A stretch of 64,000 nt of DNA. Source: Ianthella basta (taxonomy: Eukaryota > Porifera > Demospongiae > Verongiida > Ianthellidae). A model generated the notes under the pieces. It was not told where the DNA came from, searched no databases, and saw nothing but the letters and a program-made list of their open reading frames with translations. Within the stretch, counting starts at the first letter, position 1. Each line of letters starts with the position of its first letter. Position numbers and translations under genes: made by a program. Of this stretch, positions 23,067 to 64,000 are shown piece after piece. Location: contig OZ025880.1 of NCBI GenBank assembly GCA_964019415.1, positions 4,373,813 to 4,437,812 on the forward strand, written 5' to 3'.

Positions 23067-23099
23067 TGGACACAACTAACTAGTATCCCCTCAGAACTT

Positions 23100-35556: not shown

Positions 35557-38500
35557 TTAATTCTGTCGGTCCTCAGACAACAGAACATATTCATTTCCTC
35601 TACCACTGTCTTCACTGCTAGCAGACTGCAGGTAACCAAACCAATATAAGAGGTCATAGTGAAAGCTTGCAATTGATTCAGTAGTTTGCTTTATATGCAT
35701 GCAGACTGATTTTGCCTGCAAGCACTAATGCATCCAGACATTGGTGGAATAGTATAAATACTGTACAATATGTATAACGTATTATAATAATTATGATCTG
35801 AACAAGATTTTGTGTTTCATGTTTGTCATGTATAATAATTTGTGTCATGCACACTTGCATATGTATTCTTGCATGCATGCTGCCCACTTTTGAGCAATTG
35901 CAATGTATAAATTATAAATTATACATTGAAGACAAGCGAATAAATATCTACATGGAAACTTACAGTTTGGTACTTTTTGAGTTCCTTCTTCAGAGTCTCA
36001 TTCTCACTCTGCATAGCAGCAAGTGAGTACCTTTGCAGACTTTCTATGCCGCTGCTCATCGATGCTAACAGGTCTGAGTCAGAGTTGTTGTTTTGGCTAC
36101 TTTGGGTGGTCCCACCCTTAATAGCCCTGTAGAACTAAGTGAAAGGAAAATCAATTAATTTCATGCATACCTCATGCACTGGTTTGAAATTCTCTCTCCT
36201 CTTCACTTATATGGAATGTAACTAATAATGCATGCTGCATTTTGTCTCAAAAGAAAAGAGACTTCTACCTAAATAATCCATTCGAATTAAGATTTTGAAG
36301 CATGTACATGATTTATCTTACATATAGTACGCAGCTGTACTTTACATATCACAAACATCACTGACTGTACATATTCATGTGTCTTTTGCATCATGCTATG
36401 CCAATAAAATAGTACAAACCTTTGGCACAAAGAGAACTAGAAGAAGGAGAGTCGTAGCACACTGTCGTTCCAGCAACAGTAATATGACTAGTATACGGGC
36501 GTCTTCAATAGCACTAACCAAGGCCACTTCAAGTATGACTGTAAAGAGGAAGGCATATGTGGCCAGGCCAACCTGCCTGGACTCTCTCAGCTCTGGTATG
36601 TTAACTTTTCGGTTTTGAAAGGCCAAGACACAACCAATAATGCATAAGACAATCCTGTATCCCACCAGGATGCCGAAGCCAATATAGTAGTCATCACGGT
36701 CAGTACAAGTGATTTGCTTGACAAATTGCCCCATCTGCAAAGGATGAGAGAACTTATGGTATTGTAACATTATTAATATAATGGTGTGCATGCCAACCAA
36801 ACATGCATCATCAGTAGTGTACACATTAAGTTTCTTAGTCTGGCTAAGGATCTGTATCGTCTTACATATATAAGGTGTCACAAAATTGTAAATATTATTC
36901 TGTGTGTTATTACTACCATTCAAAATCATGGCTGTCAAATTGTGCATACTTAACACTGAAGCCATCTGCAGACATTGAGATATGTTCCTCACTTTTTTGT
37001 AGTGACAAGCCAATCGAGTAGATGGTATTAAGGTGAAGACGCCAAGAAGAATAATGTCCACAATTAGAAATATCACAAGGACGAGCAATAGCTTCCAATC
37101 CTTTAGAGCCTAAGAAGTAAAAAAGGGTGGGTTGGTTCTCAGGCTAAGCATATATATACTAACCTTATTTCCAAGCAATAAAGTGCATAACTGTTTAATC
37201 AGTAGGATAAAGACAAGCGCAGCAGGAAATCAAGGCATACTCCATTGAAGGGCTTAGCACATGTGAAGCAACTTGTCCCATGCATTCCCTAGTTGATCCA
37301 CACTGACTGTATGGTAAGTTTAAGCTCACTTTCTTTTTCTGGGTTGGGTTGTGGAAGATGTAGTATACCCTCCAATTCTTCAGCAGCAGAGGCACAAAGA
37401 ACAAGGTAGCTCCAATGTTCCATCCCCAACGTCTGATCTGCTCAGTAGCACATGTACGTGGTGAAGTGCAGATAACTTCAGTGAATTTAATTTGTAGGTT
37501 ATCTCTTGGGCACATGGCAGAGATGTGTATATGTACATAATTATTATCAGGGGTCATTTGGGGTTGTTAAATAAGTGTAAACTATTATATATTGTTATCT
37601 AATCTCTTTGTGCATTACGCAAATTTAAAAAATGGGAGTGAAATAGCTTAATGCTGTAGTTGTGCCCGCAAAGGACATACAACACAATATTATATTATGA
37701 CTTGTACTGCAGCTGTATAATTATATAAGAATTATTATGTCTACTCACCTCAGTTAAAACTGTAGCCACTTTGAGATCAGTTGTTGGAAAGCCAGTTACT
37801 GTCGCAGTTGTAAACCATACAATGCCACCCACTGCTATTACCATATTCAATCTAGGACTTGTCAACTTCATTTCTCTGTATAAAGTCATACATGGAAGAT
37901 CAATATTCATGGTTGTGATTAATATGTAAATAACACTATGCTTTAGTTATATACTGATGTCATTGAGTATATAGTCCACAAACTACTTTTGGAACTTGTC
38001 ACACTCTGCATTAAGTTATCTGGTAGAACATGGCAAATTTATGTCTGTGGGGCTGCTGGGTCCTTGAAACAAGCTAAATACTGTAGAACCAGAGGATAAT
38101 TATAGGATGTCCGCAGATCATACCTGTCAGAATGAAATGCTGCATGCATGCATGATATGAATCCGATGTATGCCATTGATTACCTTCTGTTCCAAAGTAC
38201 AAGCATCATCACTATGCACACAACAGCAAGGACAATTCCCAAAAGACAGCAGAAAAGGATAAATCCAAAGGCTACCCATGGTACAACTCGGATGACTGTA
38301 TGGGGTGGGCTCGGTACTCCATCTGTAGAAATATAATTATAGAAGGCCTGATTGACACATGTTGTGAAATTTACTGATTTTATATGTAAACATATATTTA
38401 ACTGCTTCCAACTCCAGCACTTTACAAGAAACAGTGCCATCAACATAAGGCTTACCATCATTTTTATGTATAGAGATCTGTGCATATCTGCCAGATATGA

Positions 38501-41500
38501 CACTTAAGAACAACTTCTTTGCAATGATCACATGACATTCTTTGAGTAGTCATTGAAATCATAACCTTAAAATTTCTTTTGATAAAATTTATTTCCATAC
38601 TTATAATATACAACTGACATTTTTCTATAAGCAGGATGTATGCACATGCTGCGGTAGCACAGGTAACTGACTTGGAAACATTGTGTCCAAGCTGTGCCCA
38701 TCCATGAACTGAATACTTGCATTTGGCTTCGAATTCATGGGATCAAGAGTGATGTTGGCTATTGGCATTAAAGTTAGTTTGCCACCTGAAGAATTAAAGT
38801 GGTTGCGCACAGCAAAGAGGACATGAGGAAGTGCGTGATGAGTTAAACTAATTATATATGTCCTTTCAACTAACGTTATGACCATACAGCTTACTTGGTG
38901 AAAGCTGATACTGGAGTGCTACAAACCGTTCTGCACTTCGAAAAGTGTTGTTAAACTGGATACTTCCCTGTGCACAGTGGAGGAAGGGAGTAGACATGTA
39001 AATAACACTATACAAGTAATTGCTGCATGGCATTACTGTAATACACCAAACCAGCCTGTTACACTGATGAGCAAACTAGTTTGGATAATGTGAATAAAGT
39101 CCATGCAGGTGAATGTAAACTTAAGCATTAATTTATAAGTATACATACACAATAACTATATAAAAGTCCAGCTATAATTGATGATATAGTAGCAGCACTA
39201 TACTTACAAACATGTATATATACCACCACACCTGTTACAGCAAAATTTGATAACCACCTCACTGTAAGTCCATGCAATGTACAATTTTCCAGTGTACTCT
39301 GAATGACATCTTTCAAGGCACGACTTTGTTGGGAAGAGTTCAGAGTAAGGTTCCTATCACTCAGCATTGGTAGAGACAAATTCAGAACTTCCGCAGTTAG
39401 CCACACAGCATCATATATCAGAGGTTCATGTACATTAAGGTATCTTCTGTTCATGTTTTGCAAGTTACTGTATGCTTCAGCAAACTGAGTGAACAGAGGA
39501 TAGGAGCAACACACTTACTCACACATTGTACAACATGCAATTAAAACTAAATATATGTACATTCCCTTAATAAATATGCACATAGCTACAGACCTAGGCA
39601 CTAATGCACACATTGTACACTTGCATTCATTTACAGTGGAACCCCGCCTTGCGGACACCCCTGAAAAGCGGACACCTCGATTATGCGGACACTTTCTAAA
39701 GTCCCAACAATTGGCCCTATTCTACCTGTATAAACTTCCCCTTGATATGCGGACACCCCGTTATTCCGTATTGTGGACAACGTCCTGTGCACCACCCTAT
39801 ACAACTCTGTATAAACCCCACCCGATAATCCGGACATTCGATCAGCTGCCAGAAAATGGCCACTCCCTGATTTGCATCGCTACCTCTGACAAGTGACAGG
39901 AACAGCACAGAACTTGACGAGTACCGCAAATCGTCTATACTAAGGGTTTTGAAAGTGTCTTTAACATGGGAAAGTTCAGCCCGAACAGCTACCCTTCAGA
40001 ATCGTCTTGAGAAATGGTGCGTGAGTCGAGTACTCGAGCGAACCACCTCTACCTTTGCGAAATTCGTCTTATTTTGATACTTTTCATGCATACTAGATGA
40101 TGGTTTTAACGTATGAGCGTATAAACCGTACCTCTGAAATGCGGACACCCCTATAATCAGGACACTTCTCTTGTTCCGAAGGATGTCCGCATTATAGGTG
40201 TTCCACTGTATTGCTCTTACTATTACATAATATATACTGTACATCGTTGTGTTACCCTAAAACGTTCATCCAAAGTATATTATAGCACATTTTATATGTT
40301 TGCACACAGGCTACGTATATACACAACATCCCCATGATGAATAGAGTGCACTCTCACATTCCGTGTAGTTGGTGCGCTTCCCTTCACTTCACCATCAAAC
40401 AAGGGTACAATAGTGATGGCCTTGTCCAAGAACTTCTTCACTTCTTCATTGCTGCAATTGGTTGGAGTATCTAGCTCCCACTCCCACCATGCACCTCCCT
40501 CCATCCCATAGAGCACCCACAACTTGTTGGGATACACTGCACCATGCTTCACAGCCTGCATGTGAATGTATAAGCATGCAGTCACACATACAGCAGTGGT
40601 AAATGAAATATATGCAGTATATAGCTATTGGAGACAATTTAATATATGCTTCACAGCCTGCAAACAACCAGACATTCTTGTAATTTACAATCAAAATCAA
40701 AATGACAGCAACTAAAAATTAAGAGATATTGTTGTATGGTTGTGGTTAACATCAAAGGAAAAAAGTGTGCATTGTTTCTTGTAATTGGCACACTTTTTTG
40801 ACCTTTACAACCACAAGTGTGCGTAGGTAAGTAATTGTCACCTATAAGAGCCCCTCTTATCAAAACAATCACATGGAATCAATTTGAGAACTCGACTTGA
40901 AAGGGTAGATTCTCCCGAAGCTTCTCCTCGTCGTCTTGGCTGACTACCGATGTTTCTCCAGTACCAGCACCGACGGCCGAAGCATTGAGCTTCCTGTAGT
41001 TTGCCATCGCAGATGTTTTCCAGCAGGTGGAACTCCGGATCGGCGAAAACAATAGAAACGGTGCTTCTTCCGTTTCTCGACCCACGCGGTAAAGGTTTTG
41101 AGACCCCAAGACATGAACTACTGCCTCGAGGCTACTGGAGGCATATTCGCAGACTGGAAAAGGCTTGGATACGGGTCTGAACCGGTCTCAAAGCCGTAGT
41201 CGTCTTTGCCGAAGTCGAAATTTTTCGGTGGCAGATAGTTTTCCTCGTTTGGGGATTGGTTGGTAGCCATAGTCAAGACTATGGCAGCTGCTGAAAGACG
41301 AGCAACAAGCAACGTCCCGCCGGAACTAAGCGCAGAAGGGCGCATACAACAAGTAAGTTATTGTATGGTCAACGATGCATTGGATCTTTATTGCACTCGC
41401 CCTCGGGTGCTTCGCGCCCTCGGGACTCGAGCAATAAATGCGCCAATGCATCGTTGACCCTACATTAACTATTACTTATGGGATTTTCGTGCAGTTCAAA

Positions 41501-43554
41501 TACCTCTTTCAAATACACGTTGTTGCTAACATGCAACAATGCAGCAAGTCAACCAGCTACTCAACGTTCTATGTGTATTTTCATAGTTTGCATGTACACA
41601 GTAATCATTCTACTCACCTGACAAGCAGTTTCCTTCATTATTCTTGCATGTGCCTCCAGAAAGTACACCGTTTCTGATGCATTTATCTGCCAAATGTACA
41701 AAGTTGATAGTTCTCTAAGTGAAGCAGATCTGAGATGTGCCCTGATAAATATCGCTCATCATACTGTATATACTTTGCATTTCGAAGTATTATTATTATT
41801 ATTGAATGTAAAGCTTACATACAATATGATCTTTGCATGCACAAGAGCCTGACATTGGTAGCTAAAGTAATTATAAGCCAGACCATTTCCAGCCTCCATT
41901 TGCAGGACATCAATATTATGCAAAAGTAAATGATTGGAAGTGGGTCTGGGCTATGTCAGACTATAGACATGTGCATATTGGTTACAGTTGTAACTTGGCA
42001 ACAGGAGCAGCAGGTTATATAATAGCACACCCAGTTACAAAAAATACAGCACAAGACTCTTATGTGAATAGAGGAAAAAAAGAGAGAAAACACATTGTCA
42101 CGGAGATCAGTTGCCCAGTTACAGCAGTAACGTGTGGTAATTGGGCCTCTGCTCAACAAGCTAACAAATGTAATGACCATCTGAGTATCCCCAAGTACTA
42201 TGGCCTGTCCTGTTCATACTATAGTAACAGCTTCTGTGAATTCCCTACTAGAGTCTATATACACAGAAATTCCCTTCCTTATTCTTTTGTTCCCTTTCCT
42301 TCTCCCTCATATTGTCCCATTCACGTTTCCTTATACTGCATCAATGCACCCCACACTTTCATGGGCAACCCATTCACACATTCACCTTGTAAACAACCAT
42401 AGCACAGCCACCAGAGATATATTATCAACTTCCCATAACGTACCAAGCGAGTCTGTACTCCAATTTCTTCACACAAACCAATAGCACAGAGTAAATGCAC
42501 ATCTGTCCCCAAAACCTGCCAGGTAAGGTACATACAGTTGCAATGACAGAATTTGCATGGAACAAACTTATTTCTATAATATTACATACTCAAAACAGAG
42601 TTATGCATAAATTCATGTTTGCTGTAGTATGCTGAAAAGTGAATAGCTATACACTAACCCAATTTGGTACACCCTGCTTTAGCACGGGGTAGTCTGCGAA
42701 CTCTTTCACATGTTCCTGAAACCATGTTAACTGCCGAACCCCAATGGCATCCAGGAAGTTGAGTGTTGCCATATGGTTGGAACCCAGCGAGGGCATTATA
42801 TGGAAGGTTGCCTCTTGGCGTGATGGCCTAGGCTGGCTGTAGTCAATCTGTACAGAAAGAAATGAGAAGTCAGTGCATTTCATGAAGATGTCAAAAATGC
42901 ATGCTCCAGGTTTATATAATAAAATATACCTGCAGTGAATAGAGATACTTTGCTAGCTTTGCTACCCCTTCTGTTCTCTCTGGGCATCCACCTCCAACAA
43001 TGAAAATAGATGCTCCTTCGGAACTGTTTGGTTTAGAATTCTGCACTGAGGTGTTGTACAAGTTGAAGAAAGTGAGTGCGTCCCGAGTGGCGGTGTCGAC
43101 AGTACACTGCATGTGGAGAAACGTACAGCGCATGACCCAACCTTTATAGTCTAGATCCATAAGTATTTCAGTCTGTCAACGCCGACCCTCTTCTTTCTTG
43201 TCGGGCACAATTCAAGGCATATTGATACGCACAGAGGTAGACATGAACTCTCACGTTTTGAACACGTGCAGTGCACATCTATTTACAAAGCAAACGCTCG
43301 TCATGATCACTTACTTTTGAGGAGAATACTCTCTGGTGAAGGCAGTATCCCGGGAGCATGTTGGTGTCGTCGTTGATCTGCTGAATGGCAAGTTCCGCCG
43401 CTGGGAGGGAGTCGGCCGTACGCAGTACGTCACTGCTGGCGAATAGACCTATCGGCAATACCACCCTCCCGTCGCTACCACACTCGGAGGAAGCGAGGGT
43501 AAGCGAAATGACGAGGACGAGAGGGAACAGCACCATTCCACAAAACTGTGCCAT
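35557..43554 (-). CDS. GABA-B-like class C GPCR, copy A (17 exons, 830 residues)
   Basis: Exons (5' to 3'): 43554-43315, 43172-42930, 42847-42659, 42515-42444, 41686-41618, 40555-40358, 39484-39263, 38967-38895, 38785-38672, 38322-38184, 37875-37749, 37437-37330, 37190-37164, 37109-36993, 36734-36420, 36134-35964, 35625-35557. All phases join and the frame ends in TAA. MAQFCGMVLFPLVLVISLTL is a signal peptide. Exons 1-9 encode the bilobed ligand domain (PIGLFASSD, SLPAAELAIQQIND, EPLIYDAVWLTAEVL, then the RFVALQYQ...IQFMDG end). Exons 10-15 encode seven helices with class C hallmarks: REMKLTSPRLNM after helix 1, WGWNIGATLFFVPLLLKNWR at helix 3, CVLAFQNRKVNIPELRESRQ after helix 6. There is no cysteine-rich domain, as in GABA-B rather than glutamate receptors. 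Exon 16 has a coiled-coil segment (MQSENETLKKELKKYQT), as used for GABA-B dimerisation. Ligand unknown. A TATA-like TATATTATA lies about 45 bases upstream of the ATG. Confidence 0.85.
39634..40208. mobile_element. Tigger-like MITE in receptor A intron 6
   Basis: Begins CAGTGGAACCCCGCC and ends with its inverse GGTGTTCCACTG, bounded by TA on both sides. Repeated GCGGACACC units lie inside each end. No transposase. The same element occurs at the same place in copy B (52571-53147), so it predates that duplication. Confidence 0.85.
40870..41345. other. CpG-richer segment with divergent short ORFs in intron 5
   Basis: On the minus strand ATG 41270 opens 50 codons (MATNQSPNEENYLPPKNFDF). On the plus strand ATG 41281 opens a short frame (MAAAERRATSNVPPELSAEG) that reaches a consensus donor GTAAGT at 41353. 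In copy B the plus ATG is ACG and the minus frame has a premature stop after about 30 codons. This looks like a decayed promoter/first-exon pair carried into the receptor intron. Confidence 0.4.
41367..41459. mobile_element. 93-bp palindromic element
   Basis: GGTCAACGATGCATTGG at left and CCAATGCATCGTTGACC at right are perfect inverses. The core GGGTGCTTCGCGCCC is itself nearly palindromic. In copy B the same element (55022-55883) is split by a hAT-like insertion. Confidence 0.8.
41876..41952. mobile_element. 77-bp MITE with GGTCTGG ends
   Basis: AGCCAGACCATTTCC at left is inverted as GGAAGTGGGTCTGGGCT at right. The same end occurs next to YY1/ETS motifs elsewhere. Present also in copy B at 56294-56370. 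Confidence 0.65.
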
Positions 43555-44534
43555 TTTAATTTGACACATCCGTACTGCCAGTTCGAGGCGCTATAATATA
43601 ATTATTCCAGTATAGTGACGGAGACTGCGTGCATGTGTTCCGTTAACTATAGTAGCTATGATTATTCATAGACCCATGGAGCTAGCATTGACATAGTCGT
43701 GTATTCTGAAATCTCACTTAAGACATCAATTAAATTGAAATTTGATAGAATGTCCACATTACTCATTTCTGTTCAAGCTGATAAGCATGCACCTGGTACA
43801 TGTACAAGTGGATTCTCAGTAGTGCCCCTCTCACTTCTTCTGCATATACACTTACTGCACCTTATTTGTCATTCTTTTATCCATTTTTATAATTGTGTAT
43901 GTCTTTTCCTCACAATGCATCCACCACTATACACATACACTATCGATACTCACTATCGATACTCCCTTTCACAATTGAAAAACGCATCAAACAATCAACT
44001 TTATTAATCTGCATCAATTTTATATGTATGTGTGCACACAATATGTAATTATGTCAACAAATTGCATTCATGCTTAAGAGAACATTCCTGCATGAGCTCC
44101 ATACTAAGAAATGTGCAGTTGATGCATGTGATAATCTACATAAGTATGCACTCAAAAGCTATTAGGAGTCTTAGATAGACTAACACAAACAAAACTACTC
44201 GAGTTTCTCTCATCGTATTAAGTTTGTCGCTCTCTCTTCAGCAGTCCTCAGTCTGTAGAGCAATTGCAACTCCATTGCAGTTGTTTATTGTTTCGGCCAT
44301 TTTATATAAAGGCAGGAAGTGGGTCTGGTAGATTTGCCAGGTGTCGATGTCAAAACCCCCGGGAATCGAAGGGCGTGAATTGTTAATGACGCTTTGATAT
44401 TCGCCGACGCTCGCTGTGGGTTAGTTTGGTGTGAATAAAGAGATGGCCAAAGCGTGTCACTGCCGACTGGCTTCGGTAGGTCTCTTATTTACAGCCTTTG
44501 CCAGCCGTGTACGATCGCGTACTAGGGTACACGA

Positions 44535-44540
<6 letters not shown>
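43555..44540. other. Upstream region of receptor copy A
   Basis: No gene called. A plus-strand ATG at 44443 opens MAKACHCRLAS and reaches a donor-like GTAGGT, conserved in copy B at 58853, but no second exon is evident. GGAAGTGGGTCTGG lies at 44322-44335. Confidence 0.4.
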
Positions 44541-44619
<79 letters not shown>

Positions 44620-44634
44620 ATGTGTGTGTGTGTG

Positions 44635-44669: not shown

Positions 44670-44673
<4 letters not shown>

Positions 44674-45552: not shown

Positions 45553-46971
45553 GTGCCAATGCTGGTTTGCAGTACCCCCTACAGCTGCCCAAGAAATGTG
45601 ACAAAATGTGAAAATGTGAAAGGAATTGTGACAAGAAATGAGATACTGGAGGAAGCCCTGGGGTTGCAGCTTGTGAGCTGTGCAAACGCTGAGCTTTTGG
45701 GTGCACCAATAGGTGGAGCCCAATCCACAGATAACATCATCCAAGGAAAGGCTGCTAGACTGAGATTCATGGGAAAAAGACTGTGCCCTCTTCAGACTCA
45801 AGATGCTTTGCTTCTCCTCCAGCACTCATTTGCTATTCCTAAAGTTATGTACATCCTACGTTCATCCCCTTGTTTTGCCTCGCCTCAGCTCAGCTCCTTC
45901 GATGGATTGCTGAGGAGCATCCTCAGTGATGTTATCAACACCCGTTTGGACATTGATTCTGCCTGGGCTCAGGCCTCGCTTCCAGTCAGGTTTGGAGGGA
46001 TCGGGATCAGAAGCACAGTTCAGCTTGCACCATCTGCCTTTTTGGCCTCTGCTGCTGGCTGCGCTGAATTGGTCCAGGTGCTTCTCCCTTCCAAGCTGCA
46101 GAGCCTTTCGGATCCATGTATCAAGACGGCCATCGAATCTTGGAGTGAGGGCCATGAGCACCCCCCTCCACTTCCACCAACCTCACACCAACAGAAGGCC
46201 TGGGACACACCAAGGGTGGAGGCCACCTACAGGTTCCTTCTTGATTCTGCCACTGACAGTCAGACCAGAGCTCGTCTCTTGGCTGTCAAGTGTAGGGAGA
46301 CCGGCGCATGGCTCAGTCCTCTCCCAGTGGCCTCCCTTGGTCTTCGATTAGATGATGAGGCAGTCCGCATCGCGGTGGGACTTCGCCTAGGCCTGCCTCT
46401 CTGCCGACCACACCAGTGTGTGCATTGTGGATCCCTAGTTGATGAGCTGGGCACACATGGATTGAGCTGCCAATTCAGCAAGGGCCGGCACCCTCGTCAT
46501 GCAGGTGTCAATGATGTGCTTAAGAGGTCCCTGTATGCGGCGCAAATTCCATCTAACCTGGAGCCCACTGGCCTTTATCGGTGAGATGGGAAGCGCCCAG
46601 ATGGTGCCTTGGTTGTGCCTTGGAAAGGGGGGAAAGCACTAGTCTGGGATGCAACCTGCCCAGATACCCTGGCCCACTCCTACCAACAGATCTCCACTAG
46701 AGAAGCTGGGGCAGTGGCAGCAGAAGCTGAAAGGCGCAAGAAGCTAAAGTATGCGAACCTCGGTTCCAGCTACGTCTTTGCACCTGTGGCAGTAGAGACT
46801 CTAGGTGTGATCGGTCCGGACTCACACACTTTCCTCAGGGATCTGGCAGGTAGGGTTCGAGGAGCCACAAGGGAGCCCTTGGCTCACTGGTACATGCTGC
46901 AGCGTCTGTCGGTAACAGTCCAGCGAGGGAACGCCTTGGCCATCCGGAGCACGGCTGAGCAGGAGTCCTGA
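45553..46971 (+). pseudogene. Non-LTR retroelement C-terminal part with CCHC finger and endonuclease-like motif
   Basis: One frame spans the interval, broken by a single TGA at 46582-46584. The N-terminal portion (ELLGAPIG, RLRFMGKRLCPLQTQDALLL, IPKVMYILRSSPCF) resembles the thumb region after a reverse transcriptase. A CX2CX9HX3C finger (CVHCGSLVDELGTHGLSC) follows, then, past the stop, DGKRPDGALVVPW and LVWDATCPDT, which resemble the RPD...D pattern of restriction-like endonucleases in R2-type LINEs. The RT core itself is missing at the 5' side, as expected of a 5'-truncated copy. Sequence up to about 45589 is shared with spacer B, so the true element starts at about 45590. Assignment by motif, not by alignment. 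Confidence 0.6.
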
Positions 46972-48065
46972 AGAGTTCCCCTGCCTTTGACTTGCTTAGT
47001 AGGGTCAGTAGATTCCTAGATGTAGTCGTTAGTGTTATTTAATGCATTATCTAAATTATTTTAATTCCTGTAACTTATAATCGATTGATCATTATATTTT
47101 ATATTCAATTTTATTATTCATTCAATTATCAATTTAGAAGCATAAATATAATATTCAAATTTATGCACTATTATAAATTTCATTTCTTTTCTTCATACAT
47201 TTAGCATAGTTATATTTTAAGAACTTGGTGACTTGGATTAACTAATGTCTTTTCCCTTCATTAATTGGGGCGAGCCTGAGCGAGCCCCACAGCTAGGAGA
47301 TCAACGGCGATTTTGTCTGTTTGTCCTCGTACGTCTTACCGTATAGTTCTATTTGTGAAACGCATTTGTACTAGTCGCTTTTGGCTTCACGAACATTGTG
47401 GTTGCACTATCGTGCATGTACAAACAATTATACATATCCTACATATTGGACAGTGTACAGTGCACAGTGTACATGTTCACGGACGACGACATGGATCCGG
47501 CCCACGCGGAGCACCTACGGCGGAGGCGAGAGCGGGAGAGAGACAAACGTGCCTCCGAAACACCTAAACGCGCAGAGAAGAACGGCTGAGAGTGCGAAGA
47601 GAACGGGACAGGGCCAGGCGCGCTATCCGAGTGGCCAACGCAACTGCTGATGCGACACAGGCCCGCCTGCAGCAGATAAGTGCTGCCCAGAGGGCACGAC
47701 GCCACGCAGAAAGTGCAGACCAGAGACAGGCCCGACTGCTGCAGATAAGTGCTGCCCAGACCGAACGACGTGCTGCTGAAACTGTTGTAGAGACAGAAGT
47801 ACGATTAGACCGTGACAGAGAAAGGCATAGAGCACAACGTCGCGTGCAGCCGCAACCTTCACTGCTTGAACAGCCTGTGGTTCATCACCAAATGGGTGCC
47901 TTCCATAGACACCTATCTAAACTGAAGGTGGCGCAATGTATCACTTGCTGTGAGGCATGACTGTGCATGTTCTACAGACCACATTATTGCTTTATTCCTT
48001 GCTCAGGCTCGCCCCACTGATGATTATCATCTGCCTAGTATAAACATGCTTTGTGCACTTGTGTG
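45590..48065. mobile_element. Composite insertion specific to spacer A
   Basis: Relative to spacer B, where ACAGCTGCC (59878-59886) continues almost directly into CCCATACTATATCAGAG, spacer A carries about 2.48 kb here. It contains the retroelement fragment, an AT-rich stretch (46972-47266) and the 749-bp inverted-repeat element. Confidence 0.75.
47267..48015 (+). mobile_element. 749-bp element with 15-bp inverted termini and Helitron-like N-terminal ORF
   Basis: GGGGCGAGCCTGAGC at the left and GCTCAGGCTCGCCCC at the right are perfect inverses. Inside, a plus-strand frame (47469-47589, shifting to 47592-47960) encodes arginine-rich repeats of about 25 residues (QARLQQISAAQRARR, QARLLQISAAQTERR) followed by HHQMGAFHRHLSKLKVAQCI. 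From memory of the class, this is the style of N-terminus seen in Helitron-type helicase proteins; the Rep and helicase domains are absent. No clear target duplication. Confidence 0.5.
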
Positions 48066-51500: not shown

Positions 51501-54500
51501 AAAATTTCTTTTGATAAAATATATTTTTCCATACTTATCATACACAACTGACATTTGTCTATAAGCAGGATGTATGCATGTGCTGCAGTAGCACAGGTAA
51601 CTGACTTGGAAACATTGTGTTCAAGCTGTGCCCATCCATGAACTGAATACTTGCATTTGGCTTCGAATTCATGGGATCAAGAGTGATTTTGGCTATTGGC
51701 ATTAAAGTTAGTTTGCCACCTGAAGAATTAAAGTGGTTGCGCACAGCAAAGAGGACATGAGGAAGTGCGTGATGAGTTAAACTAATTATATATGTCCTTT
51801 CAACTAACGTTACGACCATACAGCTTACTTGGTGAAAGCTGATACTGGAGTGCTACAAACCGTTCTGCACTTCGAAAAGTGTTGTTAAACTGGATACTTC
51901 CCTGTGCACAGTGGAGGAAGGGAGTAGACATGTAAATAATACTATACAAGTAATAATATTGCTGCATGGCATTACTGTAATACACCAAACCAGCCTGTTA
52001 CACTGATGAGCAAACTAGTTTGGATAATGTGAATAAAGTCCATGCAGGTGAATGTAAACTTAAGCATTAATTTATAAGTATACATACATAATAACTATAT
52101 AAAAGTCCAGCTATAATTGATGGTATAGTAGCAGCACTATACTTACAAACATGCATATATACCACCACACTTGTTACAGCAAAATTTGCTACCACCTCAC
52201 TGTAAGTCCATGCAATGTACAATTTTCCAGTGTACTCTGAATGACATCTTTCAAGGCACGACTTTGTTGGGAAGAGTTCAGAGTAAGGTTCCTATCACTC
52301 AGCATTGGTAGAGATAAATTCAGAACTTCCGCAGTTAGCCACACAGCATCATATATCAGAGGTTCATGTACATTAAGGAATCTTCTGCTCATGTTTTGCA
52401 AGTTATTGTATGCTTCAGCAAACTGAGTGAACAGAGAATAGGAGCAACACACTTACTGATCACACATTGTACAACATGCAATTAAAACTAAATATATGTA
52501 CATCCCCATAACATGCACATAGCTACAGGCCTAGGCACTAATGCACACATTGTACACTTGCATTCATTTACAGTGGAACCCCGCCTTGCGGACACCCCTG
52601 AAAAGCGGACACCTCGATTATGCGGACACTTTCTGAAGTCCCAACAATTGGCCCTATTCTACCTGTATAAACTTCCCTTTGAAATGCGGACACCCTGTTA
52701 TTCCGTATTGTGGACAACGCCCTGTGCACCACCCTATACAACTCTGTATAAAACCTCACCCAATAATCCAGACATTTCGATCAGGTGCTAGAAAATGGCC
52801 ACTCCCTGATTTGCACCGCTACCTCTGACAAGTGACAGGAACAGCACAGAACTTGACGAGTGCCGCAAATCGTCTATACTAAGGGTTTTGAAAGTGTCTT
52901 TAACATGGGAAAGTTCAGCCCGAACAGCTACCCTTCAGAATCGTCTTCAGAAATGGCGCGTGAGTCGAGTACTCGAGCGAACCACCTCTACCTTTGCGAA
53001 ATTCGTCTTATTTTGATACTTTTCATGCATACTAGATGATGGTTTTAATGTATGAGCATATAAGCCGTACCTCTGAAATGCAGACACCCCTATAATCAGG
53101 ACACTTCTCTTGTTCCGAAGGATGTCCGCATTATAGGTGTTCCACTGTATTGCTCTTACTATTACATAATATATACTGTACATCGTTGTGTTACCCTAAA
53201 ACGTTTATCCAAAGTATATTATAGCACATTTTATATGTTTGCACACAGGCTACGTATATACACAACATCCCCATGATGAATAGAGTGCACTCTCACATTC
53301 CGTGTAGTTGGTGCGCTTCCCTTCACTTCACCATCAAACAAGGGTACAATAGTGATGGCCTTGTCCAAGAACTTCTTCACTTCTTCATTGCTGCATTCAG
53401 TTGGAGTATCTAGCTCCCACTCCCACCATGCACCTCCCTCCATCCCATAGAGCACCCACAACTTGTTGGGGTACACTGCACCATGCTTCACAGCCTGCAT
53501 GTGAATGTATAAGCATGCAGTCACACATACAGCAGTGGTAAATGAAACATATGCAGTATATAGCTATAGGAGACAATTTAATATATGCTTCACAGCCTGC
53601 AAACAACCCGACATTCTTGTAATTTACAATCAAAATCAAAATGACAGCAACTAAGTAATAGTTAAAGAGGTGTCTCTGAGGTTAGATAGGTGACCAAGAG
53701 GTGTCTCTGAGATTTAGAGCACGAGGCACGAGGGCGCGAAGCGCCCGAGTGCCGAGTGGTCTAAATCTTCAGAGACACCGATTGGTCAGCATTTAAGTGT
53801 TATAGATCCCAAATGATTGGGTAAGGAGCAGGCAGCGAATCAGTTTACGTACTCGTCCTTGCGTCATCACGCGTCTACCGGAAGTAGTTAGCTACTCCTG
53901 ACAATGGCGGAGAAAACGTCGTGTGATTCGGGTCTAAAGTTAGGTTGTTCATCTCCCAGCGGACGTTTCCTACAGGTCGGCAGTGGATGCGGCGCGTCAG
54001 CTAAGCGTAAGCCAACTCACTGTCAACCACGTCAGCCACAGCGTTTCCCAGAGTCGTGTACGTAGCTACCAAAGCCTGTTTCCCGCGTAGCTTGTAACCA
54101 GCTGCAGTTCCAATTTCTTGGCTCTGGTTCCTAGCCGGATTGTTGCTGTACCCTGTTTATCGACGAAACAAGTAAGCCGGGCGACCTGTGCATCGTATCG
54201 TATGTTATGGCGCCACAATTGTTATCACAGCTGCAGTTCTCTTCAGCTGCAGGGATCTACGGGATTTAGACACCCGGTGTCTAAATGATTTAGATCCCGC
54301 GCGAAATACAAGAGTCTACGAGTTTTAGAAACAGCGCTTAGAACGCCCGTTACCATGGTAATGGGATCTATAAATTAAGAGATATTGTTGTATGGTTGTG
54401 GTTAACATCAAAGGAAAAAAGTGTGCATTGTTTCTTGTAATTGGCACACTTTTTGACCTTTACAACCACAAGTGTGCGTAGGTAAGTAATTGTCACCTAT

Positions 54501-57500
54501 AAGAGCCCCTCTTATCAAAACAATCACATGGAATCAATTTGAGAACTCGACTTGAAAGGGTAGATTCTCCCGAAGCTTCTCCTCGTCGTCTTGGCTGACT
54601 ACCGATGTTTCTCCAGTACCAGCACCGACGGCCGAAGCATTGAGCTTCCTGTAGTTTGCCATCGCAGATGTTTTCCAGCAGGTGGAACTCCGGATCGGCG
54701 AAAACAATAGAAACGGTGCTTCTTCCGTTTCTCGACCCACGCGGTAAAGGTTTTGAGACCCCAAGACGTGAACTACTGCCTCGAGGCTACTGGAGGCATA
54801 TTCGCAGACTGGAAAAGGCTTGGATACGGGTCTCAACCAGTCTCAAAGCCGTAGTCGTCTTTGCCGAAGTCGAAATCCTTCGGTGGCGGATAGTTTTCCT
54901 CGTTTGGGGATCGGTTGGTAGCCATAGTCAAGACTACGGCAGCTGCTGAAAGACGAGCAACAAGCAACGTCCCGCCGGAACTAAGCGCAGAAGGGCGCAT
55001 ACAACAAGTAAGTTATTGTATGGTCAACGATCAGGGGGGGTCGGACAAGGTCCTGGGATTGCGCAATACCAGCACCTCAATAATTGCATTCCTGACATTC
55101 CAATCGCGTATCCATATGTTAGCTAACTGTGCTCCAAGGCCGATTGTGCATACCCTGAGCCATGGCAGGGCCTTGTACTGCATTCGCGCCCCTGGTATGA
55201 CCCGTACGTACGTAGCCAAGGAGCCATACGGTGGATTGGGCTTAATTGTCTGACCGCTTTCATGATTTAGTTTTGCAAGTTATTGCAGCGTTTCCTGAGG
55301 ATTGCCAGCACGCTTAAGCCATTTCTAGCATCCCTGCTATCGAATGTGACAAATCGTGTACAGAACCAAGACGATTGCAAGGACGTGGCTGCCGATTGCA
55401 CTCCCATTGCAGAAGCAGTCAACCTATCAGTCTTGCAGTCCTGAAGTGATCAATGAGGACTCGCTATCAGCTTCTAAGGAGTCACTTCCACAGGAGCACT
55501 TGCTCAGTACTCCAGATTAGGCTTCATCTGCCTCGTAGCCAGCAGCAGCGAACACTCGTACACCGGTGTTGGAAAATGCTCGCAAAACCTACCTAGATGC
55601 TGGGGAAGGGCGGGGAAGGGTCCATTTTCTGATAGCCCTTGTCCAACTGTGTGCTCAGAAGCAAAGAAACAAGCGATGCGACGTGTTTCTCGAAATATGT
55701 CTGCTCTTTGCTAGTATAGGTAAAATACACAGTAAAGAGCAGCCGCGTCGGCCATTTTGCGGACACACGTGACCTTGACCGACCCCCCCTGGTCAACGAT
55801 GCATTGGATCTTTATTGCACTCGCCCTCGGGCGCTTCGCGCCCTCGGGACTCGAGCAATAAATGCGCCAATGCATCGTTGACCCTACATTAACTATTACT
55901 TATGGGATTTTCGTGCAGTTCAAATACCTCTTTCAAATACACATTGTTGCTAACATGCAACAATGCAGCAAGTCAACCGGCTAATCAACGTTCTATGTGT
56001 ATTTTCATAGTTTGCATGTACACAGTAATCATTCTACTCACCTGACAAGCAGTTTCCTTCATTATTCTTGCATGTGCCTCCAGAAAGTACACCGTTTCTG
56101 ATGCATTTATCTGCCAAATGTACAAAGTTGATAGTTCTCTAAGTGAAGCAGATCTGAGATGTGCCCTGATAAATATCGCTCATCATACTGTATATACTTT
56201 GCATTTCGAAGTATTATTATTATTATTGAATGTAAAGCTTACATACAATATGATCTTTGCATGCACAAGAGCCTGACATTGGTAGCTAAAGTAATTATAA
56301 GCCAGACCATTTCCAGCCTCCATTTGCAGGACATCAATATTATGCAAAAGTAAATGATTGGAAGTGGGTCTGGGCTATGTCAGACTATAGACATGTGCAT
56401 ATTGGTTACAGTTGTAACTTGGCAACAGGAGCAGCAGGTTATATAATAGTACACCCAGTTACAAAAAAATACAGCACAAGACTCTTATGTGAATAGAGGA
56501 AAAAAAGAGAGAAAACACATTGTCACGGAGATCAGTTGCCCAGTTACAGCAGTGGTAATTGGGCCTCTGCTCAACAAGCTAACAAATGTAATGACCATCT
56601 GAGTATCCCCAAGTACTATGGCCTGTCCTGTTCATACTATAGTAACAGCTTCTGTGAATTCCCTACTAGAGTCTATATACACAGAAATTCCCTTCCTTAT
56701 TCTTTTGTTCTCTTTCCTTCTCCCTCATATTGTCCCATTCACGTTTCCTTATACTGCATCAATGCACCCCACACTTTCATGGGCAACCCATTCACACATT
56801 CACCTTGTAAACAACCATAGCACAGCCACCAGAGATATATTATCAACTTCCCATAACGTACCAAGCGAGTCTGTACTCCAATTTCTTCACACAAACCAAT
56901 AGCACAGAGTAAATGCACATCTGTCCCCAAAACCTGCCAGGTAAGGTACATACAGTTGCAATGACAGAATTTGCATGGAACAAACTTATTTCTATAATAT
57001 TACATACTCAAAACAGAGTTATGCATAAATTCATGTTTGCTGTAGTATGCTGAAAAGTGAATAGCTATACACTAACCCAATTTGGTACACCCTGCTTTAG
57101 CACGGGGTAGTCTGCGAACTCTTTCACATGTTCCTGAAACCATGTTAACTGCCGAACCCCAATGGCATCCAGGAAGTTGAGTGTTGCCATATGGTTGGAA
57201 CCCAGCGAGGGCATTATATGGAAGGTTGCCTCTTGGCGTGATGGCCTAGGCTGGCTGTAGTCAATCTGTACAGAAAGAAATGAGAAGTCAGTGCATTTCA
57301 TGAAGATGTCAAAAATGCATGCTCCAGGTTTATATAATAAAATATACCTGCAGTGAATAGAGATACTTTGCTAGCTTTGCTACCCCTTCTGTTCTCTCTG
57401 GGCATCCACCTCCAACAATGAAAAGAGATGCTCCTTCGGAACTGTTTGGTTTAGAATCCTGCACTGAGGTGTTGTACAAGTTGAAGAAAGTGAGTGCGTC

Positions 57501-57972
57501 CCGAGTGGCGGTGTCGACAGTACACTGCATGTGGAGAAACGTACAGCGCATGACCCAACCTTTATAGTCTAGATCCATAAGTATTTCAGTCTGTCAACGC
57601 CGACCCTCTTCTTTCTTGTCGGGCACAATTCAAGGCATATTGATACGCACAGAGGTAGACATGAACTCTCACGTTTTGAACACGTGCAGTGCACATCTAT
57701 TTACAAAGCAAACGCTCGTCATGATCACTTACTTTTGAGGAGAATACTCTCTGGTGAAGACAGTATCCCGGGAGCATGTTGGTGTCGTCGTTGATCTGCT
57801 GAATGGCAAGTTCCGCCGCTGGGAGGGAGTCGGCCGTACGCAGTACGTCACTGCTGGCGAATAGACCTATCGGCAATACCACCCTCCCGTCGCTACCACA
57901 CTCGGAGGAAGCGAGGGTAAGCGAAATGACGAGGACGAGAGGGAACAGCACCATTCCACAAAACTGTGCCAT
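48532..57972 (-). CDS. GABA-B-like class C GPCR, copy B (17 exons, 829 residues)
   Basis: Exons: 57972-57733, 57590-57348, 57265-57077, 56933-56862, 56110-56042, 53494-53297, 52422-52201, 51901-51829, 51719-51606, 51254-51116, 50807-50681, 50369-50262, 50116-50090, 50035-49919, 49669-49355, 49074-48904, 48597-48532. Structure, phases and motifs equal copy A; most exons differ by zero to two residues, for example N/E in PT(N/E)CSNEE of exon 6. The last exon differs: one base is lost near the copy-A acceptor, and an AG seven bases upstream restores the frame, giving SAVASSKASGKG instead of SASSEDSGRG before the shared NEYVLLSE. Intron 5 is enlarged by two insertions absent from A (53654-54371 and 55032-55791). 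The near identity argues for a recent duplication or gene conversion. Confidence 0.85.
52571..53147. mobile_element. Tigger-like MITE in receptor B intron 6
   Basis: Orthologous to 39634-40208 in copy A, same TA target and position. Confidence 0.85.
53654..54371. mobile_element. Palindrome-rich insertion specific to receptor B
   Basis: Copy A reads straight through here (GCAACTAAAAATTAAGAG). The insertion contains an inverted pair (AGGTGTCTCTGAGATTTAGA and TCTAAATCTTCAGAGACACC), a GGGCGCGAAGCGCCC core between them, a second pair ATAGATCCCA/TGGGATCTAT, and the palindrome TTTAGACACC-C-GGTGTCTAAA. It appears to be two nested foldback elements. GC content is higher than in the neighbours. Confidence 0.65.
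54520..55018. other. Copy-B version of the divergent ORF segment
   Basis: Counterpart of 40870-41345. The plus-strand start is ACG and the minus-strand frame stops early, so neither ORF is kept. Confidence 0.45.
55032..55791. mobile_element. hAT-like element inserted in the palindromic element of copy B
   Basis: Termini CAGGGGGGGTCGG and CCGACCCCCCCTG are inverted. GTCAACGAT is duplicated at 55023-55031 and 55792-55800 (8 bases plus one ambiguous), as hAT elements do. It splits a 93-bp palindrome that is intact in copy A. The 760-bp interior has short unrecognised ORFs only. Confidence 0.8.
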
Positions 57973-60367
57973 TTTAATTTGACACATCCGTACTGCCAGT
58001 TCGAGGCGCTATAATATAATTATTCCAGTATAGTGACGGAGACTGCGTTCCGTTAACTATAGTAGCTATGATTATTCATAGACCCATGGAGCTAGCATTG
58101 ACATAGTCGTGTATTCTGAAATCTCACTTAAGACATCAATTAAATTGAAATTTGATAGAATGTCCACATTACTCATTTCTGTTCAAGCTGATAAGCATGC
58201 ACCTGGTACATGTACAAGTGGATTCTCAGTAGTGCCCCTCTCACTTCTTCTGCATATACACTTACTGCACCTTATTTGTCATTCTTTTATCCATTTTTAT
58301 AATTGTGTATGTCTTTTCCTCACAATGCATCCACCACTATACACATACACTATCGATACTCACTATCGATACTCCCTTTCACAATTGAAAAACGCATCAA
58401 ACAATCAACTTTATTAATCTGCATCAATTTTATATGTATGTGTGCACACAATATGTAATTATGTCAACAAATTGCATTCATGCTTAGGAGAACATTCCTG
58501 CATGAGCTCCATACTAAGAAATGTGCAGTTGATGCATGCGATAATCTACATAATTATGCACTCAAAAGCTATTAGGAGTCTTAGATAGACTAACACAAAC
58601 AAAATTACTCGAGTTTCTCTCATCGTATTAAGTTTGTCGCTCTCTCTTCAGCAGTCCTCAGTCTGTAGAGCAATTGCAACTCCATTGCAGTTGTTTATTG
58701 TTTCGGCCATTTTATATAAGGGCAGGAAGTGGGTCTGGTAGATTTGCCAGGTGTCGATGTCAAAACCCCCGGGAATCGGAGGGCGTGAATTGTTAATGAC
58801 GCTTTGATACTCGCCGACGCTCGCTGTGGGTTAGTTTGGTGTGAATAAAGAGATGGCCAAAGCGTGTCACTGCCGACTGGCTTCGGTAGGTCTCTTATTT
58901 ACAGCCTTTGCCAGCCGTGTACGATCGCGTACTAGGGTACACGATGCGCGCGCGCGTGTGTGTGTGTGTGTGTTTGCAACTGTTGTGCTGTGTCTGTGTT
59001 GGTGTGTGTCTTTAATGTATATCACGTTTATGCATAGATGTGCTGCTGTGTGCGTGTTTGTGTGTGTGTATACCATGTAACTATAGGACAGCATGCACAC
59101 TTGCGATTGTTCACCCTGTTACTGCAAGGAAGAGGTCTTTACTGTACTTACTTTAATGTATTTGGCTAACCATATCTGAGTAGCAATTAAACTCTAAGTA
59201 GCTGCCATGATTCCCCTGCTGGAACTGGCCAACAATGGCCAGAGGTGCTAGCTACCCATCTCAACCATGAGCAAAGTGGGGTGTTCACTGGGACCATTGT
59301 GAGTGTATGAGTATAGTGCATGGTTTCTGCATAAATAGCAACACCAAGTTTAACAAAGAGCCATAGCAGTAGATGTACATAACATACAGCAACTTGTGGG
59401 CCAGCTGTAATTGGCCTACATTATACAGGAAGGCTGCAATGTTTTAGCACAATATGTTAGTGTGATTTAGGACCAGTGAGGATGACTGTTTTAGAGAAGT
59501 TGCTGGCTTATACAGCGATGATCTTACAAGAGGTTCCATTGTACCTTCAATTTATATACAGTTGTGCATTACTACACAGTGATTGCCAAGGTACAGTGAT
59601 TCGGACTTGAAGACCAGTCAAAAAAGAACTTGAGATAAAGGTGGAAATTAACACCTCAATGAATTCTTGCAAACCACCACCTTCACCATTACACACTGCC
59701 AGCTGCAGTATGTGCATCAGTATTGTATATGTGTACTAGTGCTGCAAGTTGGTGGGAATGCACACCTTATAAGCATGCACATGACACTGGCAAGGTTCAC
59801 AGTTGTGCCCTTGTACATAATGTACTGTTGCTGCATCCCACTCTAACTTGTGCCGATGCTGGTTTGCAGTACCCCCTACAGCTGCCGGTCTAACTGTACT
59901 TATTGTGACCCATACTATATCAGAGTTCGAACCAGTGCAGATACATAAGACTTGGTAATATTGCACAGGCCATGCAGAGAGGTATTGTCTAGCAACTCTA
60001 GGCTCTACAAATAGCCAATATTAGGCAGTTTAACGTACAGTTACCATGACAATAAGATATTCTATTATGCATTTCTGATGCATACTGCATTATAGAGTGT
60101 ACCAGAATTTGTATGTATTACCCATCAACCAAACTTACAGCTCAAGAAGCAACAAAAATGGCTGTAAAGTGTACATCCACCTACAACTGCAAAATGACTT
60201 ATATGGTCATTTGGCTAATTCTGCTAGCATGGTGTACTATAATGTTAGCATGCATGAGCCCGTATAAATAGAGTTCAGTTCATTCTAAGGCTATTCACTC
60301 CATAACTATGCTAGGAATCACTTAAATTAGTCACCATTATCTCAGCTTCAACTGCCATCTTCATCTG
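57973..60367. other. Spacer between receptor copies B and C
   Basis: Collinear with 43555-45589 plus 48066-48531 of spacer A. It holds no gene. A 26-bp TG tract lies at 58947-58973. Segments after 59890 match the sequence beyond the insertion in spacer A. Confidence 0.7.
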
Positions 60368-63300
60368 TCAGTTCTCAGACAGCAGAACATAATCATTGCC
60401 CCTGCCACTGGCTTCACTGCTAGCAACTGCAGACTACAGGGAACCAAACCATATCCCAGATGTGAAAGCTTGATTCAGTAGATTGCTCTTTGTGCATGCA
60501 TGCAGATATTGCAAGACTTACCAACTTGCTTACAAGCACCAACACATGCGAACATTGGTTGAGTAGTAAAGATGTAGTACAGTGTGTATACAGTGAGTGA
60601 TGAATGAGATTTAAATTTTTGTGTGTCTTGCATAATTATCTTACTAAGCAGCCCATGCTGTCCATTTTGTACAATTACAATGAATATACCTTGAAGACAA
60701 TAATTATATAATTATTATATTATATTATTATTATAATATATATAATTATTAAGCATAAAATAATTGGTAACTTACAGTTTGGTACTTCTTGAGTTCCTTC
60801 TTCAGAGTCTCAATCTCACTCTGCATAGCAGCAAGTGAGTACCTTTGCAGATTTTCTATGCTGCTGCTCATTGATGTTGACAGGTCTGAGTCAGTGTTGT
60901 CGTTTTGGCTACTTTGGGTGGTTCCACCCTTAATAGCCCTGTAGAACTAAGTGAAAGGAAAATTGATCAACTGCAGACCTCAAGTTGGTTTGAAATTCTC
61001 TCTCTCATCATCACTTGTATGGAATGTAATTAATAATGCATGCTGCATATGTCTCAAAAGAAAAGAAAATTCTTCCTAACTGTACCTGACTGTACATATT
61101 CATGTGTCTTTTGCATCATGCTATGCCAATAAAAGAGTACAAACCTTTGGCACAAAGAGAACTAGAAGAAGGAGGGTCGTAGCACACTGTCGTTCCAGCA
61201 ACAGTAATATGACTAGTATACGGGCGTCTTCAATAGCACTAACCAAGGCCACTTCAAGTATGACTGTGAAGAGGAAGGCGTACGTGGCCAGGCCAACCTG
61301 CCTGGACTCTCTCAGCTCTGGAATGTTAACTTTTCTGTTTTGAAAGGCCAAGACACAGCCAATAATGCATAGGACTATCCTGTATCCCGCCAAGATGCCG
61401 AAGGCAATATAGTAGTCATCAGTGATGCAAGTGATTTGCTTGATAAATGGCCCCATCTGCAAGGATGAGAAAATTTATGGTATTATTGCAGTATTAATAT
61501 AATAATACATTATTATGGTGTGCAAACCAAACATGCATCATCAATAGTGTACACATTAAGTTTCTCAGTCTGGCTAAGGTATCTTACATATATAAGGTGT
61601 CACAAAATTGTGAATATTATTGAATGTGTTATTACTACCATTCCAAAATGTAATGGGCAGGTTAGTTGGTTAGCATGCAAACTTTATGACATCATTGCTA
61701 TCAAATTGTGCATACCGTGCTATATTATCTTAGCTTCATGACATCATAACACTGAAGCCATCTGCAGGCATTGAGATATGTTCCTCACTTTTTTGTAGTG
61801 ACAAGCCAATCGAGTAGATGGTATTGAGCTAAAGACGCCGAGAAGAATAATGTCCACAATTAGAAATATCACAAGGACAAGCAATAGCTTCCAATCCTTT
61901 AGAGCCTAAGGAGTGGAAAAATGGGTGGGTTGGTTCTCAAGCAAAGCATATATTAACCTTATTTCCTACCAATAACGTACATAACTGCCTAGTAATTCCC
62001 TAGTTGATCCACACTAACTGTATGGTAAAGTTTAAGCTCACTTTCTTTTTCTGGGTTGGGTTGTGGAAGATGTAGAATACCCTCCAATTCTTCAGCAGCA
62101 GAGGTACAAAGAACAAGGTGGCCCCAATGTTCCATCCCCAATGTCTGATCTGCTCAGTAGCATGCACATGTACGTGGAGAAGTGCAGGTGACTTCAGTGA
62201 ATTTAATTTGTAGGTTATCCCTTGGGCACATGGCAGAGATGTGTATATGTACAAAATTATTATCAGGGGTCACTTGGGGTTGTTCAATAAGTGTAAGATA
62301 TTATATATGGCTATCTAATATATTTGTGCTTATATGCAAATTTAAAAAATGGGAGTGAAATAGCTAAATGCTGTAGCATTTTGCCCGCGAATGACATACA
62401 ACACAATATTATATTATGACTTGTACTGCAGCTGTAGAATAAGAATTATTATGTCTACTCACCTCAGCTAAAACTGTAGCCACTTTGAGATCAGTTGTTG
62501 GAAAGCCAGTTACTGTCGCAGTTGTAAACCATATAATGCCACCCACTGCTATTACCATATTCAGTCTAGGACTTGTCAACTTCATTTCTCTGTATAAAGT
62601 CATACATGGAAGAACAATATTCATGGTTGTGCTTAATATGTAAGTAACACTATGCTTTAGCTATATACTAATGTCACTGAGTATAGTTCACAAACTACTT
62701 TTGGAACTTGTCACACTCTGTATTAAGTTATCTGGTAGAACATGGCAAATATATTTCTGTGGGGCTGTTGGGTCCTTGAAACAAGCTAAATACTGTAGAA
62801 CCAGAGGATAATTATAGGATGTCAGCAGTTCATACCTGTCAGAATGAAATGCTGCATGCAAGCATGATATGAATCCAATGTATGCCATTGATTACCTTCT
62901 GTTCCAAAGTACCAGCATCATCACTATGCACACAACAGCAAGGACAATTCCCAAAATACAGCAGAAAAGGATAAATCCAAAGGCAACCCATGGTACAACT
63001 CGAATGACTGTATGGGGTGGGTTTGGTACTCCATCTGTAGAAATATAATTATAGAAGGCCTGATTGACACATGTTGTGAATTTACTGATTTTATATGTAA
63101 ACATATATTTAACTGCTTCCATCTCTAGCACTTTACAAGAAACAGTGCTATCAACATAAGGCTTAGCACCATTTTTATGTATCATAGAGGTCTGTGCATA
63201 TCTGTCAGATATGACACTTAAGAACAACTTCTTTGCAATGATCACATGACATTCTTTGAGTAGTCATTGAAATCATAACCTTAAAATTTCTTTTGATAAA

Positions 63301-64000
63301 ATTCATTTCCATATCTATAATATACAACTGACATTTGTCTATAAGCAGGATGTATGCACATGCTGCAGTAGCACAGGTAACTGACTTGGAAACATTGTGT
63401 TCAAGCTGCGCCCATCCATGAACTGAATACTTGCATTTGGCTTCGAATTCATGGGATCAAGAGTGATGTTGGCTATTGGCATTAAAGTTAGTTTGCCACC
63501 TGAAGAATTAAAGTGGTTACGCACAGCAAAGAGGACATGAGGAAGTGTGTGATGAGTTAAACTAATAATGCCCTTTTAACTAACGTTATGACATACAGCT
63601 TACTTGGCAAAAGCTGATACTGGAGTGCTACAAACCGTTCTGCACTTCGAGAAGTGTTGTCAAACTGGATACTTCCCTGTGCACAGTGGAAGAAGGAAGT
63701 AGACATGTAAGTAACACTATACAAGTAATTGCTGCATGGCATTACTGTAATACACCAAACCAGCCTGTTACACTGTAGAGCAGACTAGTTTGGATAATGT
63801 GCATAAAGTCCATGGAGGTGAATGTAAACTTAAGCATTATAAGTATGCATACATAATAACTATAATAGCCCAACTATTATTGATGGTATAGTAGCAGTGC
63901 TATACTTACAAACATGCATATATACCACCACACCTGTTACAGCAAAATTTGCTACCACCTCACTGTAAGTCCACGCAAAGTGCAGTTTTCCACTGCACTC
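60368..64000 (-). CDS. GABA-B-like class C GPCR, copy C (5' part beyond window)
   Basis: Exons seen: 64000-63964 (partial, equals exon 7), 63676-63604, 63499-63386, 63034-62896, 62589-62463, 62149-62042, 61984-61958, 61905-61789, 61456-61145, 60946-60776, 60433-60368. All phases match copies A and B. The exon equivalent to 36734-36420 is one codon shorter (TCITDDYY for TCTDRDDYY). The last exon uses the same acceptor as copy B (SAVASSEASGRGNDYVLLSE). Introns show more indels than A versus B, so C is the more distant paralogue. The product keeps the helix 1, 3 and 6 hallmarks, so it should be functional if the 5' half is intact. Confidence 0.8.

Follow-up and report, generated by a model that had tools for sequence, protein, structure and literature searches.

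The window analysed here, meaning the whole 64,000-nucleotide stretch of Ianthella basta DNA at positions 4373813-4437812 of contig OZ025880.1, belongs to a contig labelled C13 in the searched assembly (209 Mb, 96 contigs). Self-BLAST revealed one unit of ~10 kb repeated head-to-tail on the minus strand. Splice sites and homology served to build the gene models. A blastn search with the individual exons, covering the window and the flanking sequence fetched for it (37 kb to the right), located four gene sets, A to D. The features are as follows, in window numbering.

35557..43569, minus strand: gene A, complete, with 16 coding exons for 804 aa and all introns GT-AG (Pfam)
Gene A exons 5' to 3', minus strand: 43569-43315, 43106-42930, 42847-42659, 42515-42444, 41686-41618, 40555-40358, 39484-39263, 38967-38895, 38785-38672, 38322-38184, 37875-37749, 37437-37330, 37109-36993, 36734-36420, 36134-35964, 35625-35557
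35485..36267, minus strand: 3' terminal part of A, comprising exons 15-16 and the 3' flank, over which B groups with C and A stands apart (site patterns, self-BLAST)
40367..40649, minus strand: exon 6 and adjoining intron of A, near-identical to D (93.6% over 283 bp)
45590..48065, no strand assigned: insertion in the spacer between A and B, with no counterpart between B and C (self-BLAST, Pfam)
48532..57987, minus strand: gene B, complete, with 16 coding exons for 803 aa, the last of them at 48597-48532
53655..54367, no strand assigned: insertion in B intron 5, absent from A
55032..55791, no strand assigned: insertion in B intron 5, absent from A, with CAGGGGGGGTCGG/CCGACCCCCCCTG as inverted termini and a target duplication of 9 bp
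60368..64000 within the window, minus strand: gene C, continuing to 66833, 16 coding exons, 802 aa
68692-75958, right of the window edge: gene D, exons 1-15 found, all open and matching A-C

Position 35557 is the final base of the gene A stop codon, and the window portion of C comprises exons 8-16 plus 37 bases of exon 7. Genes A, B and C have canonical GT-AG introns, identical splice phases and no internal stops. For exon 7, the donor gtgagg directly after ACA was chosen because every frame then stays open; the donor gtaacag, 24 bases further on, causes a one-base frameshift in B and C and was rejected. Exon-by-exon blastn located 15 of the 16 expected exons of D and did not find exon 16. A stop flagged in the seven-helix match of D sits in the splice acceptor before exon 14, outside the exon. 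No fifth copy was found on C13 by a PF00003 (7tm_3) search with 113/113 candidates scored, nor by a search with the A protein among the 56/234 candidates scored. The first-pass annotation had described three 17-exon genes, head-to-tail on a single strand, with conserved splice phases and continuing past the right edge. The arrangement, the phases and the continuation are borne out, while the array with D holds four genes and the coding exons number 16, an extra non-coding exon being possible.

The A unit (35485-45589) matches the B unit (48450-59886) in four blocks of 93.5-98.5% identity by self-BLAST, reaching 98% with introns included across the 5' half. The C unit starts at 59901 and runs to the window edge; by self-BLAST its in-window part is 88.7-93.2% identical to B and, 89.8-93.6% identical to A, whose 3' end is the exception at 73.4%. 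The proteins of A and B, expected from the annotation to be almost identical in their coding exons, agree at 782 of 801 aligned residues, and C is the more diverged, as proposed (A-C 743/800, B-C 747/802). D shares 523/774 residues with A and is an older copy than A, B and C.

The A-B spacer insertion contains an STPR-repeat reading frame just below the Pfam cut-off, and 45550-46968 may be LINE-like by our own reading, Pfam finding nothing there. A stretch in A intron 6 (39632-40209), which B also has and C lacks at the corresponding position, has cggacacc motifs and inverted ends; we take it to resemble a non-autonomous DNA transposon. To the left of the array are protein kinase exons on the plus strand (943-3070), with PK_Tyr_Ser-Thr at 3.7e-28 over 2315-3070 and a weak N-terminal piece at 943-1263, and a reverse-transcriptase fragment on the minus strand (5753-6718; RVT_1, 9.4e-27) that we read as non-LTR type. 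An LTR retrotransposon occupies 18763-23302, with 194-bp repeats (18763-18956 and 23109-23302) that are 100% identical, suggesting recent insertion. Its frames are 19095-19679 and 19683-23063, the latter with RT, RNase H and integrase domains, and it appears to be of the Ty3/Gypsy type.

COX1 lies on a 21,233-base mitochondrial contig and has nine in-frame TGA codons. In the 19,000 bases of this contig read by eye with code 4 we recognized cox1-3, atp6, atp8, atp9, nad2-6, nad4L and cob, and ARAGORN reported 17 tRNA genes. A mitochondrial atp9 in a tRNA-rich genome marks demosponges and some homoscleromorphs. This demosponge-type contig indirectly backs the earlier supposition that the DNA comes from an animal without neurons.

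Recombination and selection among the copies

In a three-way alignment of A, B and C (6,914 gap-free of 10,666 columns), informative sites were counted in A coordinates. Sites grouping A with B predominate over BC and AC sites at 40700-44300 (161, 8 and 3, respectively), at 37300-40700 (99, 21 and 18) and at 36300-37300 (58, 6 and 10). The pattern flips at 35485-36300, where 137 sites group B with C against A, 13 group A with B and 11 group A with C. The best breakpoint falls at A coordinate 36267, in intron 14, with a permutation p of 0.0005, which is the floor for 2,000 shuffles. Since the grouping flips at the 3' end, the copies are mosaics. The difference between the A-C tail (73%) and the body (89.8-93.9% in most blocks) leads us to read A as probably a B-like body on an older tail, a direction that the comparison does not prove. 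The 3' flank of B matches that of C (48066-49207 against 59901-61079, 92%), and the similarity of A and B ends at 35485/48450; this resemblance of the B flank to that of C, and not to that of A, makes a simple duplication of haplotypes an unlikely source of A and B.

A second patch involves D, in which exon 6 and 88 bp of intron are 93.6-95.1% identical to A and B. The dS of exon 6 against D is 0.08 for B-D (0.08-0.11 over three pairs), compared with 0.70-0.77 across 12 exons other than 1, 6 and 12, and a synonymous-site test of exon 6 against those 12 exons gave a Fisher p of 9e-8 (B-D pair only). The same B-D test gave p = 2e-4 for exon 1 and p = 0.017 for exon 12; the exon 12 value is weak, given that the choice of exons was made by eye. 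Lowish dS against D (0.35-0.45) also occurs in exons 5 and 15. The exon 6 patch looks as would be expected of gene conversion. A permutation test on the longest shared run (four coding sequences, 580 polymorphic sites) returned 0.004 for A-B, 0.026 for A-C, 0.56 for B-C, 0.012 for A-D, 0.25 for B-D and 0.0012 for C-D. For A-D and for C-D the longest run falls within exon 14 and not within exon 6, so this test gives the exon 6 conversion no support. Among the papers listed in literature searches, none dealt with recombination inside GABA-B-like arrays of sponges, which is weak evidence of absence.

The dN/dS comparison among A, B and C suggested in the first-pass annotation was carried out pairwise by the Nei-Gojobori method over all coding sites, a crude measure that recombination disturbs, and gave overall ratios below 1 (A-B 0.26, A-C 0.36, B-C 0.42). 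By part, the ratios among A-C are 0.10-0.21 for the seven helices (7TM), 0.62-0.72 for the signal peptide plus flytrap and 0.21-0.81 for the short tail. The contrast in nonsynonymous and synonymous counts between flytrap and 7TM has Fisher p-values of 0.0056 (A-C), 0.0051 (B-C) and 0.047 (A-B), the pairs not being independent. Against D, with exons 1, 6, 12 and 15 left out, flytrap (0.30-0.33) and 7TM (0.31-0.36) have similar ratios, and the contrast is therefore limited to the young copies. Among A-C only, the seven-helix part thus appears to be under tighter constraint than the ligand part. The locus illustrates how an array may evolve, with recombination between copies and, among young copies, a signalling half held more tightly than the ligand half.

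Receptor family, ligand pocket and relatives in the genome

The gene A protein matches 7tm_3 (PF00003; E 2.7e-33, 116.2 bits, cut-off 33.5) and, at residues 55-181, ANF_receptor (PF01094; E 4e-13), with no further Pfam family at E 0.001. The cysteine-rich NCD3G domain was not detected between flytrap and 7TM of gene A at that threshold, and alignment positions 396-470 of A, B and C contain no cysteine. The best PDB match of A is human GABA-B subunit 2 (GB2; E 2.9e-38, 134.8 bits, residues 54-778), followed by GB1 (92 bits), GPR156 (42.5) and mGlu7 (27.6). These domains and scores agree with the first reading of the genes as class C receptors, and indicate that A-D are GABA-B-like and closer to GB2 than to GB1. 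In the PDB alignment, exon 15 is matched to the beginning of the coiled-coil region of GB2. RSRR is the retention signal of GB1, and no such motif occurs in A-C. By alignment, A-D have leucine at the position of GB2 Leu686, a loop-3 residue that touches Gi according to the available part of PMC12499500.

The same source, in the part available, lists W65, S130, S153, H170 and E349 in lobe 1 and Y250 and W278 in lobe 2 as the GABA contacts of human GB1 (PMC12499500). Pocket positions were transferred through PDB alignments, of A to GB2 and of a C14 gene to GB2 and GB1; one gene each was read from contigs C17, C22, C14 and C11. Genes A-C have proline, proline and methionine at S130, S153 and H170 by alignment, as does D by eye, so that none of the three is retained. 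The C17 and C22 genes have proline at S130, methionine at H170 and, in an ungapped reading, serine at S153 (1/3). The C14 gene retains S130, with threonine at S153 and valine at H170 (1/3), and the C11 gene, whose translation was read by eye, retains S130 and S153, with leucine at H170 (2/3). No gene that was read retains the full set. At the remaining positions, whose placement is tentative, A-D may have valine at W65, histidine with an adjacent glutamate at E349, alanine or histidine at Y250 and methionine at W278. All four genes of the array, and likewise the genes read from C17 and C22, conserve two lobe-2 motifs, [ML]EGG.WWEW and HEPL.YD. Because A-D have lost all three of these residues (S130, S153 and H170), they are unlikely to bind GABA in the pocket and manner known for GB1. 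With the three checked contacts gone from the C13 array, one kept by the C14 gene and two by the C11 gene, the comparison suggests that the C11 and C14 genes are better candidates than A-D for tests of GABA sensing.

A tree was built from 12 seven-helix sequences, among them a single gene from the C17 array, a single gene from the C22 array and two C9 genes, the only rows that are not GABA-B-like. In this tree the genes of C13, C17 and C22 form one clade (support 100/98). The placements of D inside this clade, of the C14 gene and of the C11 gene are unsure, and the tree output cautions that two long-branch joins, of the C14 gene to human GB2 and of the two C9 genes to the C13 clade, could be spurious. 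Among the 56/234 candidates scored in the A-protein search, C17 has at least five first exons and at least five last-helix exons, and C22 at least three and at least two, respectively; the subfamily would therefore have some 11-12 members or more. The C14 gene (C14:4541501-4550000) is the sole 7tm_3 place listed on its contig (113/113 candidates scored). It scores almost equally against GB2 (202.5 bits) and GB1 (201 bits), and retains the GB1 motif SP.LSNRQ.F.TF.

Other class C receptor arrays lie at C9:3127602-3334581 (15 full-length 7tm_3 matches, one with a TGA) and C5:8047704-8084293 (five full-length matches). In both, the whole 7tm_3 domain stands in a single open frame, unlike in the exon-split GABA-B-like genes. 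At C3:12351210-12494903 there is a run of split 7tm_3 matches with stops between the pieces, two of which (12421810 and 12449721) have equal scores and may represent a very recent duplication.

Origin and role of the array

For the observed gene structures, homology, open frames, mosaic grouping and constraint, we consider it likely that the locus is a GABA-B-like array that arose by tandem duplication, was partly homogenized by recombination and encodes dimeric receptors with either a non-GABA ligand or a GB2-like relay. The duplication would most probably have proceeded by unequal crossing-over, and later recombination between copies would have homogenized part of the array. Each protein may form one subunit of a plasma-membrane dimer, as the coiled-coil-like tail encoded by exon 15 suggests. 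The flytrap would face outward and close upon a small ligand other than GABA, or the closure of the partner's flytrap would be relayed as in GB2. Closure would pass through the seven helices to a G protein, probably Gi/o. The likeliest role is the sensing of small molecules, external or intercellular; the chemosensing role proposed in the first-pass annotation is likewise an inference.

The main rival to this explanation is that the copies are GB2-like partners whose flytraps bind nothing, and which couple to the G protein and serve traffic for ligand-binding subunits encoded elsewhere, for example by the C11 gene. The nearest solved relative is indeed GB2 and not GB1, the S130 position holds proline as in GB2, the C-terminus is coiled-coil-like, and the C11 gene has serine at the S130 and S153 positions by eye. 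However, the conservation of the lobe-2 motifs across A-D and the genes read from C17 and C22 looks like that of a changed pocket still in use, and about 11-12 copies are not obviously needed for one partner; we regard such a role as possible but somewhat unlikely. True GABA receptors with a rearranged pocket, in which GABA is held by other residues such as the conserved histidine and glutamate beside the E349 position, seem quite improbable. The glutamate, one residue off that position, occurs in the HEPL.YD motif of A-D and of the two genes read from C17 and C22, these two genes have serine at S153 in the ungapped reading, and sponges are reported to be GABA-responsive in titles cited in PMC10133484. 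Against this stand the change of S130, S153 and H170 together in A-D and the retention of S130 in the C14 gene and of S130 and S153 in the C11 gene.

The array itself could also be read differently. The 98% identity of A and B across the 5' half, introns included, would fit an assembly error in which both haplotypes of a single gene were set in tandem, and sponges can be highly heterozygous. This reading, which the first-pass annotation had named as its own refutation, is argued against by the match of the B 3' flank to C and not to A and by the sharp switch of B from grouping with A to grouping with C at the 3' end; C and D, moreover, stand as separate copies in the same assembly, and we hold the haplotype reading to be distinctly unlikely. 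A relic array, with all or part of its copies silent or in decay, is very improbable: insertions in introns and spacers and the missing exon 16 of D could be signs of a relic, but all frames are open over 15-16 exons with canonical splice sites, and the overall dN/dS is below 1.

Returning to a tandem array of functional GABA-B-like receptors, we put forward one extension only as a speculation that is itself unlikely. The C13, C17 and C22 arrays would be a sponge branch that combines a GABA-B signalling chassis with a new conserved pocket (proline at S130, methionine at H170, [ML]EGG.WWEW and HEPL.YD), and recombination would pair near-identical ligand domains with different cytoplasmic tails, as in A and B. 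If so, one signal could reach different outputs through different tails.

Sponges have no neurons and yet many GABA-B-like genes, for which this locus supplies exact gene models. The available text of PMC10133484 gives 21 GABA-B-like receptors for Amphimedon and describes metabotropic receptors as dramatically expanded in every demosponge and calcisponge analysed, and that of PMC4302439 reports 33 glutamate-family receptors, two of which cluster with human GABA-B, unstably in a larger dataset. From what these sources state, the demosponge expansion of GABA-B-like genes is already published, and the C13 array is a further well-resolved case (PMC10133484, PMC4302439). The likeness, drawn from descriptions in the accessible parts of both papers and not from sequence, is that one sponge has many such genes; those parts do not set out array structure, exon models or recombination between copies. 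The placozoan expansion resembles it as a large GABA-B-like set in a nerveless animal: Trichoplax has 37 such genes, and there are seven separate placozoan clades, one gene being orthologous to GB1 (PMC10133484, available part). With GB1 the array genes share the architecture, but the S130, S153 and H170 contacts are substituted in A-D and the score is lower (92 bits). With GB2 (PDB 6UO8 chain B) they share the flytrap and seven helices, alignable from A residues 54 to 778 into the coiled-coil region, as well as proline at the S130 position and the Leu686 equivalent. They differ from GB2 in being distant (134.8 bits over about 725 residues), in carrying other lobe-2 motifs (MEGG.WWEW, HEPL.YD) and in standing in tandem arrays.
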